DNA of 30,873 nt from a virus: IMG/VR virus record IMGVR_UViG_3300030389_000528, positions 1 to 30,873 of that record. The stretch is one strand, 5' to 3'. Position 1 is the stretch's first letter. Each line of letters starts with the position of its first letter. A program made the translations under genes and the position numbers. Below the pieces are notes generated by a model that saw only the letters and a list, made by a program, of their open reading frames with translations, searched no databases and had not been told where the DNA came from. Positions 1-30,194 of the stretch are shown here, in pieces.

Positions 1-3
1 TGC

Positions 4-32
4 AACATAGAAACACACGCAACCGTAAACAA
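4..32 (-). promoter_or_regulatory. Weak candidate leftward promoter
   Basis: On the minus strand, TTGTTT (27-32) is separated by 17 bases from TATGTT (4-9). Transcription would leave the window at base 1. It could reach the leftward operon beginning near 30809 only if the window ends are joined. The match is modest, so this is a tentative call made because the leftward arm otherwise lacks a visible start signal. Confidence 0.2.
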
Positions 33-99
33 GAATCATGCCAACTTACCTGGTATTACCCTGCTACTTGAGTAGTTATATTGGCACAGAAATTGCTTA

Positions 100-128
100 T
101 GCACTAATATTGTGCAATCTGCACTAAT
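100..128. repeat. TGCACTAAT direct repeats with GTGCA/TGCAC inverted repeat
   Basis: TGCACTAAT occurs at 100-108 and 120-128. Between and within the copies, GTGCA and TGCAC form a 5-bp inverted repeat with a 3-base spacer (112-124), and GCAC/GTGC flank an AT core at 101-115. The arrangement, about 70 bases upstream of the rightward -35 box, resembles an operator or a protein-binding site for DNA packaging. Function is inferred. Confidence 0.4.
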
Positions 129-140
129 GGGGGGAGGGGG
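129..140 (+). other. G-rich tract
   Basis: Six G, one A and five G in a row, followed by GTG-rich sequence. This stands out in an AT-rich genome. It lies directly after the TGCACTAAT repeats and before the terminase promoter. It could be a packaging recognition feature, a structured-DNA element or a pause signal; the sequence alone does not decide. Confidence 0.4.
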
Positions 141-193
141 TGTGCTGTAGTGTTGTATTTATGCTGAACCCGCACAGACACTAAAAAAAGTAG

Positions 194-222
194 TTGACAA
201 ATGAGAAAAAATATGCTAGAAT
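194..222 (+). promoter_or_regulatory. Sigma70-like promoter for the packaging genes
   Basis: TTGACA (194-199), a 17-base spacer and TAGAAT (217-222), with an extended -10 TATGC directly before it. The -35 is a perfect consensus and the spacing is optimal. It lies upstream of the small terminase gene. The block TATGCTAGAAT is nearly identical to the TATGCTATAAT of the promoter at 4100-4128, which supports both as real and as host-RNA-polymerase promoters. Confidence 0.75.
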
Positions 223-361
223 TATGCTTTTGAAGAAAGAGTCTATATAGTCATACTGGACATTTAGGTTCATAGTAATTAATTATTAATAATTATTTAT
301 TATACTTACTACGAACATTATAGCTATATTGATCTATATAATGAGTAATATAGGGAAATCA

Positions 362-838
362 ATGGATATCGAACACTCTCAGAACATTGAGACTGAGTTA
401 GAGAATTCTACTCAAAACTCAATAGAACCAGAGAAGAAGAGAACATATGCTACCAAAGCCAAACAGCTTACTCCAGTAGGGACAAAAGTAAAGAGAAGAC
501 CTGGTAGACCCTCAAAGAAAGAGATGGAGTATGTAGCTCTCAAGACAAAGAGAAAAAAGAGTTCTCTTGTCTCAAAACGAGAAGAGACTCAAAAAATTAG
601 AGAACTTATGGCTAGGATGCTAATTACAAATGGCGATAGAGTTCTCAAAAAGACAATTGACATCGCCATGACGGATGAGCATCCTCATCAAATGGCAGCA
701 TTAAAATTACTAATAGATCGTGCATTACCTGTTTCTGTATTTGAAAAAGATAAGCAACTAAATAAAGGTATAACTATCAACATATCATCAGCAGCAGAAC
801 CGAAACCAGTAGTGATAGAGAATTCTGATGGAACTTGA
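362..838 (+). CDS. terS: Probable terminase small subunit
   Basis: Likely the DNA-recognition subunit of the packaging motor. This is inferred mainly from position: it directly precedes the large terminase and overlaps it by 11 bases. The 158-aa protein has a disordered, charged N-terminus with an AT-hook-like motif RRPGRPSKK (residues about 45-53), suited to binding AT-rich DNA. A helical C-terminal half follows. I chose the ATG at 362 because AGGGA sits 6 bases upstream. An ATG at 341 and a TTG at 329 are in frame but lack a ribosome site. Small terminases diverge quickly, so the family assignment is moderate; a generic DNA-binding protein is the alternative. Confidence 0.65.
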   Translation: MDIEHSQNIETELENSTQNSIEPEKKRTYATKAKQLTPVGTKVKRRPGRPSKKEMEYVALKTKRKKSSLVSKREETQKIRELMARMLITNGDRVLKKTIDIAMTDEHPHQMAALKLLIDRALPVSVFEKDKQLNKGITINISSAAEPKPVVIENSDGT

Positions 839-2129: not shown

Positions 2130-4103
2130 ATGAATAATGAAAGTTACACAGTAAATCCTCTAGTATCATGGGTACTAGGTCAATGTGACCAATGGAAAGT
2201 ACACAGAGATACAAACTACCTTGATAAGTGGCAAGAGTATGAAAGACTCTTCAGAGGCATCTTTGATGCTGCGGATAAAACTAGAGATTCTGAAAGAGCT
2301 AGAATTATTACTCCTGCACTGCAACAAGCAATAGAGTCTCACACAGCAGAGATAGAAGAAGCTGTGTTTGGTAGAGGTGAGAAGTTCTTTGATATTACGG
2401 ATAACCTAGCAGACCCACAGAAGATTGATATTCAGTTAATCCGTAATCAGATGCTTGAGGACTTCAAGAAAGGTAACGTAAGAAAAGCAGTATCTGACAT
2501 CATTTTGTTATCTGCAATCTATGGTAATGGTATTGGTGAGATCATTGTATATGAGAAGAAAGAGCTAATACCGGCTATGCAACCAGTAATAGAGATGGGT
2601 ATTACAGCAGTAGGTGTACAAGAAAAAACAAGGTTCTGTGTAGGACTAAAACCAATCACACCATACAACTTTTTAATAGACCCCTCTGCAAGCAACGTAC
2701 AGGAGGCTCTAGGCTGTGCTATTGAAGAATTGGTATCTATCCATTCTGTAGTATCAGCAATGGAGTCAGGAGTTTATGAGACAGTATCAGACCTATCTCA
2801 GTATGCAATAGAGACTGATTTAGAACCATCACAAGAAGTATCTGACTATCAGGAAAACAGAGTAAAGCTCCTACGATACTACGGACTCATACCAAAGTAT
2901 ATGTTGGATAATCAAGACGACTCAGAGAAGTTTGAAGAAGTATTCAACAAGCAAGCAGATGAGTATGGTACTCAGGCAGCAGATTACAGCGACCTAGTAG
3001 AAGGTATTGTAGTTATAGCAAATGACCAGTATTTACTCAAAGCTGAAGAGTCACCATACATGATGAAAGACAGGCCTATCGTTTCTTTTCAAAATGATAG
3101 TGTTCCTAATCGTTTCTGGGGTCGTGGTATTGCTGAAAAGGGCTATAATATGCAAAAAGCTATTGATGCTCAGGTACGATCACACCTTGACAGCGTGGCA
3201 CTAGCTACAGTACCAATGATGGCTATGGATGCTACCAGATTACCTAGAGGTGCTAGGTTTGAGGTAAAACCTGGTAAGACAATTCTTACTAATGGTAATC
3301 CAGCAGAAATTCTTTATCCTTTTAAGATAGGTTCAGTCGATGGTTCTAATATTAATACTGCTACTTCTTTTATGAATATGTTGCTTATGGCTACAGGAAC
3401 AATAGATAGCTCATCATTACAAGCTATGACTACAGCAGAAGGAGCTGGTTTATCTGTAGCATTGTCATCAATCATAAAGAAAAACAAGAGAACATTGATA
3501 AACTTCCAGGAACAATTCTTGATACCCTTTGTAACCAAGTCTGCACACAGATTTATGCAGTTTGACCCAGAGAGATATCCTGCACAAGACTTTATATTTA
3601 CTCCTTCTAGTAATCTAGGTATCATAGCTAGAGAGCATGAGCAGATGCAGTTTATGAATTTACTGAAAACACTAGGTGCAGAGTCACCAATCGTACCTTT
3701 AGTTTTGTCTGCAATCATAGAAAACTCTAGTTTGAACAACAGAGAGCAGCTAATACAGCAACTACAGCAGATGATGCAACCTAATCCACAGGAAGCACAG
3801 TCACGACAAGCTGCTGTACAGCTACAATTACAGAAAGCACAGCTAGAATTAGCAGATTTACAAGCTGATGTACAGCTAAAACAGGCTAAAGCACAAGGAG
3901 AAGCGGTAGAAACGCAGTTAAAACCTGCTGAAACACAGGCTAAGATAGCTGCTAGTGCTTCTAAGTACTTAGGAGACACTGATGACCCAACAAAAGAGTT
4001 TGAAAGACGTATAAAACTAGCAAATGTGGCTCTAAAAGAGAAAGATATTGATACAAAAGCACGAATTGCAGAATTACAACTACAAGCATCAAGAAATACT
4101 TGA
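2130..4103 (+). CDS. Portal (head-tail connector) protein
   Basis: Forms the ring through which DNA enters and leaves the capsid. Position directly after TerL and upstream of scaffold and capsid genes, and the 657-aa length, fit podovirus portals. The N-terminus is Trp- and Arg-rich, and the middle is mixed alpha/beta. Segments such as RFWGRGIAEKG (about residues 328-338) and the following DAQVRSHLDS helix resemble the portal core. The last 130 or so residues are rich in Gln, Ala and Lys and predict a long helical barrel or coiled coil. AGGA stands a few bases before the ATG. The stop codon overlaps the -35 box of the next promoter. Confidence 0.85.
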   Translation: MNNESYTVNPLVSWVLGQCDQWKVHRDTNYLDKWQEYERLFRGIFDAADKTRDSERARIITPALQQAIESHTAEIEEAVFGRGEKFFDITDNLADPQKIDIQLIRNQMLEDFKKGNVRKAVSDIILLSAIYGNGIGEIIVYEKKELIPAMQPVIEMGITAVGVQEKTRFCVGLKPITPYNFLIDPSASNVQEALGCAIEELVSIHSVVSAMESGVYETVSDLSQYAIETDLEPSQEVSDYQENRVKLLRYYGLIPKYMLDNQDDSEKFEEVFNKQADEYGTQAADYSDLVEGIVVIANDQYLLKAEESPYMMKDRPIVSFQNDSVPNRFWGRGIAEKGYNMQKAIDAQVRSHLDSVALATVPMMAMDATRLPRGARFEVKPGKTILTNGNPAEILYPFKIGSVDGSNINTATSFMNMLLMATGTIDSSSLQAMTTAEGAGLSVALSSIIKKNKRTLINFQEQFLIPFVTKSAHRFMQFDPERYPAQDFIFTPSSNLGIIAREHEQMQFMNLLKTLGAESPIVPLVLSAIIENSSLNNREQLIQQLQQMMQPNPQEAQSRQAAVQLQLQKAQLELADLQADVQLKQAKAQGEAVETQLKPAETQAKIAASASKYLGDTDDPTKEFERRIKLANVALKEKDIDTKARIAELQLQASRNT

Positions 4104-4128
4104 CTTTTACAAAAAAGTATGCTATAAT
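4100..4128 (+). promoter_or_regulatory. Near-consensus extended -10 promoter before scaffold/capsid
   Basis: TTGACT (4100-4105), a 17-base spacer and a perfect TATAAT (4123-4128), with the extended -10 TATGC just upstream. The -35 box contains the portal stop codon TGA (4101-4103). It would drive the small protein, zinc ribbon, scaffold and capsid genes up to the terminator at 6456. This fits the need for many capsid copies per virion. Confidence 0.8.
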
Positions 4129-28141: not shown

Positions 28142-28227
28142 TACTGCCCCCTTTCAAGTTCTCTAAGTCTTTCATTGTGCTCGTAGTGCTCGTCCAAGTC
28201 TACATCTTCCCAATCAAACTCGTCCAT
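28141..28227 (-). CDS. 28-aa acidic peptide
   Basis: Starts on the primase-helicase stop (TGATG) and ends on the next start (TAATG). It encodes DEFDWEDVDLDEHYEHNERL and a short basic end. The tight coupling on both sides supports translation despite the tiny size. DNA-mimic-like acidity is noted, but no function is known. Confidence 0.45.
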   Translation of the reverse strand: MDEFDWEDVDLDEHYEHNERLRELERGQ

Positions 28228-29882
28228 CACTTTGCCTCCTCTAAATCTTCTTCAAATACTTCATTCATACGTCCAGTGTTACGATCATAATACAGCGCAC
28301 ACGCCTTACCTGTCAATCCTGAATAACGATTTTTTATTACTCTGACTCTGGTAGTGTGTCTTTCCGTTACATCATCAGCTTGACTGTTTCTTTCTAAACC
28401 TAACACTAAGTCACTCAAAGTGCCGATGGCCGCAGAACCTCTGAGCTGTGAAAGCGAAGTTACAGACCCCTCCTCGTGTCCTGTTCCTGTAGGTCTACGC
28501 AAATGTGATACAGCAAACAAAGTGACATCACACTCTTGAACCAACATTCTGAGCCTGGTACAAATTTCATCTAATGCTCTACGTTCATCACCTTGCTGCT
28601 GATCTGAGACCACTATACTTATGTGGTCAAGGAAGATAAATTTACAGTCTAATGCTTTTGCCATGTAACGCACACGATTGATAATATTATCAACGCTAGT
28701 GCTACCAAAAGAATCAAACAAAAACAATCTACCAGTACCAAGGGTAGCATCAAAAGCAACCTGTTTCTCTTCTTGTGTTGCTTCTGTTTCATTCAAGTGT
28801 AAAGGCTTCATTGCGTCCAAACTCATAATCGATAAAGCAGTACGTTTGACTGATTCTTCCAAAAACAACAAACCAATGTTCTCATCAGTAGATTTTAACA
28901 GCTTGTATATAATCTCTCGTAGAAATTGACTCTTACCCAATCCAGAACCAGCCGTAATAACCACCATTTCACTGGAGCGAATACCACCAGTTAAGTCGTT
29001 TAATGACCCATAAGGATAGATAGCAATAGACTTTTGAAGTGGCTCTAATACCAAGGACTTCAAATCTTTACCCTTAACTATTCCGTCTGGCATAAATACC
29101 TGACTAGCCCACCAATCCTCTGTGAAGTGTTTAAACGCTGAGTCTGAAGAGTAATCACAAGCGTCTTTGTAACCCTTCCTCATCTTCATCATTTTTGCTT
29201 TGTTGGGAAATAGTTCTGCACATTCAAGTTGTGCCTTCTGACCTACATCATCATTATCAAAACAGAAAACAATTTGCGTAAAGGATGACAGATATTCATA
29301 GGCATCTTTACATGACTTGATAGCACTGGCACAACCATCACGAACTGAAACAACTGGAAAACGCATATCAGCACTTAGCATTTGACTAGATGCTAGTGCG
29401 TCTAACTCGCCCTCAACAACTGTGATAATTTTTGCACAACCTGCCGGATATACGTCCATTCCAAACAAGGGATTCTTTTTGCCTTCTCCTGACCATCGAA
29501 AACTCTTGTTTTTCCCTCGTATTTTAAAAACGTCTTTACCATACGGATAATAATGCGCTCCATTCAAAGCTATTTTTACCCCATACTTTTCTAGTGTGCT
29601 TTGTTTTATGTTTCTGTCCAATATGCCCTGTGGCTTGAATATAGGCTCGTCAGTAGATTTTTCGCCTTTTGGCATAAGTTGTATTAAGTCAGCAGTAGAA
29701 ACGCCCTGGTGGCCGTCTACTGGCTTTATATCACATTTTAATGACTTATTGCACTTATAGCAGAAATAATAAACACTACCATCGTCTTTTTCATACTCTC
29801 CCACGTTGGAACTACCGGCTTGAGAACACTCTGTTATTTGAGAGCATGAAAGATTTCTTACAAACTTACTTTTAATTTTCAT
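28227..29882 (-). CDS. Primase-helicase (T7 gp4-like)
   Basis: Unwinds DNA at the fork and lays RNA primers. The 551-aa protein has an N-terminal zinc-type region (Cys19, Cys41, Cys44) and a toprim primase domain with VVEGELDAL at 155-163 and FDNDD at 208-212. The RecA-like helicase has Walker A GSGLGKS at 312-318, then FIFLDHISI and a VSHLRRP motif. The zinc motif is degenerate: one of the four ligands expected by comparison with T7 gp4 is Ala. The start at 29882 has AGGA five bases upstream; an ATG four codons earlier is possible. The promoter at 29968-29996 precedes it. Confidence 0.92.
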   Translation of the reverse strand: MKIKSKFVRNLSCSQITECSQAGSSNVGEYEKDDGSVYYFCYKCNKSLKCDIKPVDGHQGVSTADLIQLMPKGEKSTDEPIFKPQGILDRNIKQSTLEKYGVKIALNGAHYYPYGKDVFKIRGKNKSFRWSGEGKKNPLFGMDVYPAGCAKIITVVEGELDALASSQMLSADMRFPVVSVRDGCASAIKSCKDAYEYLSSFTQIVFCFDNDDVGQKAQLECAELFPNKAKMMKMRKGYKDACDYSSDSAFKHFTEDWWASQVFMPDGIVKGKDLKSLVLEPLQKSIAIYPYGSLNDLTGGIRSSEMVVITAGSGLGKSQFLREIIYKLLKSTDENIGLLFLEESVKRTALSIMSLDAMKPLHLNETEATQEEKQVAFDATLGTGRLFLFDSFGSTSVDNIINRVRYMAKALDCKFIFLDHISIVVSDQQQGDERRALDEICTRLRMLVQECDVTLFAVSHLRRPTGTGHEEGSVTSLSQLRGSAAIGTLSDLVLGLERNSQADDVTERHTTRVRVIKNRYSGLTGKACALYYDRNTGRMNEVFEEDLEEAK

Positions 29883-29904
29883 AAAATTCCTCATTATTGA
29901 GAAC

Positions 29905-29973
29905 TACATAGTTATTATAATACATAGTAATAATAATTATAATAATACATAATAATATAATTACTTAGTAATA
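29905..29973. repeat. AT-rich TACATAGTAATA repeats, candidate origin/control region
   Basis: Four related units start at 29905, 29921, 29946 and 29962 (TACATAGTTATTATAA, TACATAGTAATAATAATT and shorter variants), spaced 16, 25 and 16 bases. The region is nearly pure A/T and overlaps the -10 of the primase promoter. A related CATAGTAATTAATTATTAAT lies at 271-290. Such easily melted repeats next to the primase-helicase gene suggest a replication origin or a regulatory site; this is inference. Confidence 0.45.
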
Positions 29974-29996
29974 CCATATTTTTGAACAAATGTAAA
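29968..29996 (-). promoter_or_regulatory. Candidate promoter for primase-helicase
   Basis: On the minus strand, TTTACA (29991-29996), a 17-base spacer and TATTAC (29968-29973), with TGG just before the -10. Same spacing and extended -10 as the other promoters here. It lies about 85 bases before the primase-helicase start, in the AT-rich gap. Confidence 0.5.
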
Positions 29997-30002
29997 TTAT
30001 AC

Positions 30003-30194
30003 TTAAGTATCACTTAGATGTATATTGTCGTTTACTTCCAACACTTCAGAGTCTCCAAAGTAGCCAAAATCATCATCAATCTCTGGCAAAGGCAAGCAAG
30101 ACGCACATAGCTGAACTAGTTCGTTCGTGTTGCTACCTTTTAAAGAATCCTCAAAGTTGGTTAATTCAATGTTGCATGATTTGCACCTAGACAT
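30003..30194 (-). CDS. Small zinc-ribbon-like protein
   Basis: A 63-aa protein with two CxxC pairs (Cys4/Cys7 and Cys30/Cys33), the spacing of a zinc ribbon. The tail is acidic, with EIDDDFGYFGDSE. Short phage proteins beginning RCKSCN are found in several podoviruses, with no proven role. It directly follows the upstream gene (stop then ATG). Confidence 0.7.
   Translation of the reverse strand: MSRCKSCNIELTNFEDSLKGSNTNELVQLCASCLPLPEIDDDFGYFGDSEVLEVNDNIHLSDT

Follow-up and report, generated by a model that had tools for sequence, protein, structure and literature searches.

In the operator arrays of phage regulators, short dyad-type sites are repeated close to the promoter, at the -10 box and the start site. 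The primary origin of phage T7 has an A/T-rich cluster that follows phage promoters, and the put elements of HK022 lie behind both early promoters. The T7 cluster is placed at 3761-3821 (PMC12839067). The put elements are described as a set of RNA elements of early phage operons, found downstream of promoters used by host RNA polymerase (PMC9378689).

The region considered here is the leader of a primase operon in the linear IMG/VR virus record IMGVR_UViG_3300030389_000528, which was analysed over its whole length of 30,873 bases (hereafter the window). Like the T7 primary origin, it has an A/T-rich cluster, with genes for a T7-like primase-helicase and a DNA polymerase nearby. It differs from that origin in that no phage RNA polymerase was detected in the window, the promoter is of the host type rather than the phage type, and conserved dyad units are present, with related elements at a second operon. 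As with put, the elements lie downstream of promoters that are predicted to be read by host RNA polymerase, but the leaders of the window showed no significant or covarying structure. The short dyad-type sites of this family at the -10 box or start site resemble phage operator arrays; however, the spacing in the window is irregular, the cognate regulator is only a candidate and the motif has no match in catalogues. The primase leader bears no likeness to host origins built of DnaA boxes or iterons (the window has 0 exact DnaA boxes over its full length), whereas the TerS-side block of some relatives does contain DnaA boxes. The arrangement probably belongs to an already known kind, the promoter-proximal control array, and its setting is an uncultured phage family.

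Structural genes, portal among them, share the plus strand of the window with TerL and the TerS-position gene, the names portal and capsid coming partly from translations read by eye. Replication genes (primase-helicase, DNA polymerase A and 5'-3' exonuclease) are on the minus strand. About 1-2 kb of small genes link both window ends in relatives; the map is thus closed, and the TerS and primase arms diverge from one control zone, part of which (~1-2 kb) is missing from the window. The primase-helicase gene (28227..29882, minus strand) matches phrog_239 (E 1.9e-152), Toprim_2 and DnaB_C. Its reading frame most likely starts with the ATG at 29882, behind the RBS-like GAGGAA read directly from the sequence at 29887..29892 (minus strand). 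Directly upstream of the primase leader lies a small gene for a zinc-ribbon-like protein (30003..30194, minus strand; CxxC...CxxC), whose cysteines are conserved in 5 of 5 aligned sequences and which had no match in family profile searches. A TerL search of genome_contigs for a hint of the host returned no relative. One mosaic relative (L012 / L026) has a TerL 95% identical to that of the window, with a primase only 65% identical.

The initial annotation had described four repeated units at 16-, 25- and 16-base spacing in A/T-rich DNA, overlapping a promoter next to the primase gene, and all of this was borne out. Word matching places four TACATAGTAATA-like units at starts 29905, 29921, 29946 and 29962, the 16/25/16 spacing being without helical regularity. 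Read on the plus strand, they are unit 1 (TACATAGTTATT, 29905..29916, two mismatches; AACTATGTAGT on the sense strand), unit 2 (TACATAGTAATA, 29921..29932, no mismatches), unit 3 (TACATAATAATA, 29946..29957, one mismatch) and unit 4 (TACTTAGTAATA, 29962..29973, one mismatch), the last of which contains the -10 box. Units 1-3 fall within the predicted leader of the primase mRNA. By the strict exact-unit pattern, the primase leader of the window holds only two exact units. Taken singly, the TACATAGTAATA word is no rarity here (allowing two mismatches, the window has 13 matches vs 8.1 expected), but its clustering is rare: four non-overlapping copies of any 12-mer, with up to two mismatches, fell within a 100-base segment in 1 of 400 dinucleotide shuffles. 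A/T makes up 87% of the stretch 29905-29996, and no 91-mer of the window is richer in A/T than the one that starts at 29916 (0.879). The second richest starts at 262 (0.835), in the TerS leader within the other control region. The related sequence reported from that region is also present as CATAGTAAT at 271-279, although there its orientation to the direction in which the operon is transcribed is the opposite one.

A family promoter model was derived from 17 TerS-side promoters, taken from relatives and the window. It detects three sites in the window, at 194-222 (+), 4100-4128 (+) and 29996-29968 (-). The last of these is the predicted primase-operon promoter (29968..29996, minus strand), which matches the host type and has a family-type extended -10, with -35 TTTACA at 29996-29991 and -10 TATTAC at 29973-29968. 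Its score is 16.1 vs a best of 11.1 in six shuffles. This site differs from the one proposed by a generic scan (TATACA 30024 / TATAAT 29996), which was dropped since the matching spacer end AAAAATATG of the family-model site is found also in L012 and in TerS promoters. The TerS/TerL-arm promoter (194..222, plus strand; TTGACA-N17-TAGAAT) scores 37.4, being itself in the training set of the model. It is followed by the TerS leader (223..345, plus strand), in which sequence matching locates CTATATAG (243-250) as well as CATAGTAAT. The strong site at 4100-4128 (score 34.2) is found at the portal gene's 3' end and has similarly placed counterparts in many relatives.

Conservation of the units in relatives, which the initial annotation had proposed as a check, was examined in an alignment of the window with 10 relatives whose primases are 79-93% identical, taken from 17 loci. 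The alignment leaves out L008 (leader as printed the same as that of L007), L012 (too divergent), L014 (no leader) and L015-L018 (primase 32%, upstream DNA unrelated); the leaders of L003 and L004 included in it are identical. Each of the 10 relatives retains all four units in place, and 7 of the 10 have a longer middle gap. The promoter is nearly invariant, with TTTACATTT (TATACATTT in two relatives), AAAATATG and TATTAC conserved. In nine close relatives, promoter and leader are 90-97% identical to the window vs 76-87% for the first 600 bases of the primase gene, the upstream gene being 67-91% identical. The same is seen in the more distant L012 (promoter and leader 74% vs primase 64%). The exact 36-base leader pattern gave 0 matches in viral_contigs.

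Beyond the clade of the window, only the promoter, the unit type and the position persist. Several distant lineages have units of the CTA-N2-TAG type in their primase-operon leaders, where the start of the unit is usually only a few bases from the -10 box; TerS leaders contain such units too. In L084 (TerL 65%), L099 (TerL 67%) and the kin of the latter (L102, L105, L108 and L110), CTANNTAG units begin 1-3 bases past a promoter whose last bases are TACCCT, TTACCCT or TTACTCT and which is located where the zinc-ribbon-like gene, or the gene in the corresponding position, ends. In L102, L105, L108, L110 and L084, these promoters are of the TTGAC-N18-TANNNT type, and the first unit comes 1-3 bases after the -10 box. 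Similar words follow the upstream gene in L129, L131 and L132. Clusters of at least three exact units in 130 bases were found only in primase leaders of the window clade, in the TerS leader of L076 and beside the upstream gene in L084 and L099, in 868 kb from which near-duplicates had been removed and in which some contigs are counted twice; the same 868 kb, shuffled once, had 0 clusters. Of 47 promoters, 11 have a CTANNTAG whose start is no more than 20 bases from the -10 box vs 0.30 expected, as do 6 of 42 after removal of the five promoters that had been found via their units. At the level of the family, repeated dyad sites thus keep a fixed place with respect to promoters. The 11 include the TerS promoter of the window but not its primase promoter, the first unit of which is degenerate. 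ACATAGT/ACTATGT occurs in 8 of 26 leaders, in both arms, vs a mean of 1.1 and a maximum of 5 in 300 shuffles. Leaders that come from the same phage or clade (L012 twice, L085 twice, L070 with L071) are not wholly independent of one another. In a post-hoc best-word test, which is a weak one, 4 of 200 shuffles reached the observed value.

Primase leaders of distant relatives were inspected at 19 of the 35 fetched loci. No unit clusters were seen near the primase in lineages L033, L043 and L058 and in the L089 type (seven loci), and no unit in the DNA upstream in L107 (1666 bases) and L109 (493 bases). The isolates nearest by primase, HTVC103P, HTVC104P and HTVC115P (47% for HTVC115P), likewise have no unit clusters near this gene. 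The cultured pelagiphage HTVC115P (L100) has an extremely A/T-rich stretch (0.923) without units at 1633-2036, before its operon of ssDNA-binding protein and primase.

With moderate confidence, the region is regarded as a protein-binding control region of the primase operon, consisting of a promoter and a leader with an array of CTA-N2-TAG-type sites. The units are real and conserved and probably have a regulatory role. Transcription control is favoured by the start of the units at the -10 box, by their presence at TerS promoters and by the enrichment of ACATAGT/ACTATGT in leaders of both arms. A DNA-binding protein would occupy the CTA-N2-TAG-type sites and would block or time host RNA polymerase at the primase-operon promoter. 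The same protein would act likewise in the divergent TerS arm, at some of its promoters, and would thereby co-ordinate replication genes with packaging genes. Candidates for the binding protein are the zinc-ribbon-like protein encoded upstream and the TerS-position protein (window 362-838) with its AT-hook-like GRP motifs. By a strict pattern these motifs are found in 33 of 39 TerS-position ORFs, the misses being the protein of the window (which does carry RRPGRPSKK), that of L047 (RGRPPK) and truncated ORFs. Pfam AT_hook scores 16.9 bits in the TerS-position protein of L096, just under the cut-off of 17.4, and was not found in that of the window. It is a long shot that one phage-encoded regulator reads the CTA-N2-TAG code at promoters of both divergent arms in this large uncultured family, and that it may be the AT-hook-bearing TerS-position protein. 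If this were true, binding of that protein to its own leader and to the primase leader would switch the genome from copying, with the primase operon off, to packaging.

The initial annotation had taken 29905-29996 for a candidate replication origin, started as in many T7-like phages by transcription through easily melted repeats. In such an origin or unwinding element, a transcript of host RNA polymerase would prime synthesis and the adjacent primase-helicase would load, in the manner of the T7 primary origin but with the host polymerase. The placing of A/T-rich DNA between a promoter, which it directly follows, and a T7-like primase-helicase gene would suit this, as would the position of the A/T-richest 91-mer, the strong constraint across ~114 bases and an A/T content near the top in the leaders of 7 of 9 lineages tested. 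However, this origin was not established and is considered unlikely. PF00940 RNA polymerase had 0 matches in the window, which is short of ~1-2 kb, and in 11 related records, several of them fragments; the sole match was in the distant L018 contig. GC skew, which had been proposed as a check, does not flip at the site (0.197 in the upstream genes and 0.205 in the primase on the sense strand), although this evidence is weak since skew is confounded with gene strand. GTC is absent from both strands of 29897-29996. Many lineages lack the units, and the recurrence of the unit type near several other family promoters, including those of TerS, is more in line with transcription control than with a single origin. 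A literature search with strict terms found no match, which does not show absence from print, and the part of PMC12753301 available contains nothing on origins.

A block of DnaA boxes or iterons is, moreover, located elsewhere. Upstream of TerS, relatives have a G-rich run and, ~30 bases on, a motif like TACCYGCYTAGATACAAAAAA. In the window, the corresponding block (1..190, unstranded, cut by the contig end) contains TCATGCCA at 36-43, the G-run at 129-140 and the conserved AACCCGCACAGACACTAAAAAAA within 163-190. The G-run with its ACAAAAAA-type block is deeply conserved and flanked by lineage-specific iterons or exact DnaA boxes; copies of TCATGCCA beside it number up to three in the clade of the window and five in L096. 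Exact DnaA boxes adjoin the G-run in L057, L070, L071, L072, L085, L088 and L089, i.e., in 7 of 26 loci, L088 and L089 being close kin. In these 26 loci, hand-picked for a visible G-run from 47 representatives of 74, 16 exact boxes lie in 11.3 kb around the G-run vs 5 in 243 kb elsewhere. In L085, the boxes and a unit-bearing leader are ~3 kb apart, which points to separate jobs. The TerS-side block is a better candidate for an origin or packaging site than the primase leader; it adjoins the terminase genes, so a packaging site is equally possible. The origin reading of the primase leader is unproven, and an origin is less likely there than at the other control region. The control region of the replication operon is now told apart from this likelier origin or packaging block, and each can be tested separately. 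The analysis also provides a concrete control-site motif and a promoter consensus for an uncultured phage family with T7-like replication genes in which a T7-type RNA polymerase was undetected.

The leader could instead act as RNA: a hairpin at the 5' end would shield the mRNA, control its translation or keep host RNA polymerase from terminating, similar to HK022 put though not as a member of that class. This is also doubtful. Leaders do follow promoters of both arms, and some fold far better than shuffles, namely the TerS leaders of L053 (z -4.3), L062 (-3.2), L063 (-4.8) and L088 (-4.4) and the primase leaders of L012 (z -3.0) and L110 (z -3.1). The complementarity of TerS leaders within their own arm also exceeds that in between-leader controls (0 of 5000 permutations, 22 leaders). 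However, the leaders of the window fold no better than shuffles (z -0.6, -1.0 and -0.3), and 44 predicted pairs in 11 sequences of close relatives show 0 compensatory changes. Primase leaders (n=8) favour direct repeats (p 0.0002) over complementary arms (p 0.07) against between-leader controls, the direct-repeat and complementarity tests both being inflated by local composition. In the repeat test, the primase leader of the window is unremarkable (direct rank 11 of 30, stem rank 8 of 30). An Rfam scan of the window found no family and a tRNA scan nothing. The TerS leaders of the distant L053, L062, L063 and L088 form long hairpins, unlike those of the window.

It is very improbable that the units are chance words in an A/T-rich spacer, kept by recent descent only: the single word is not rare and the leader of the window is A/T-rich enough to yield such words easily, but four-copy clusters hardly arise in local shuffles, the leader is more conserved than the flanking genes, and distant relatives that are less A/T-rich have the unit type in the same position.
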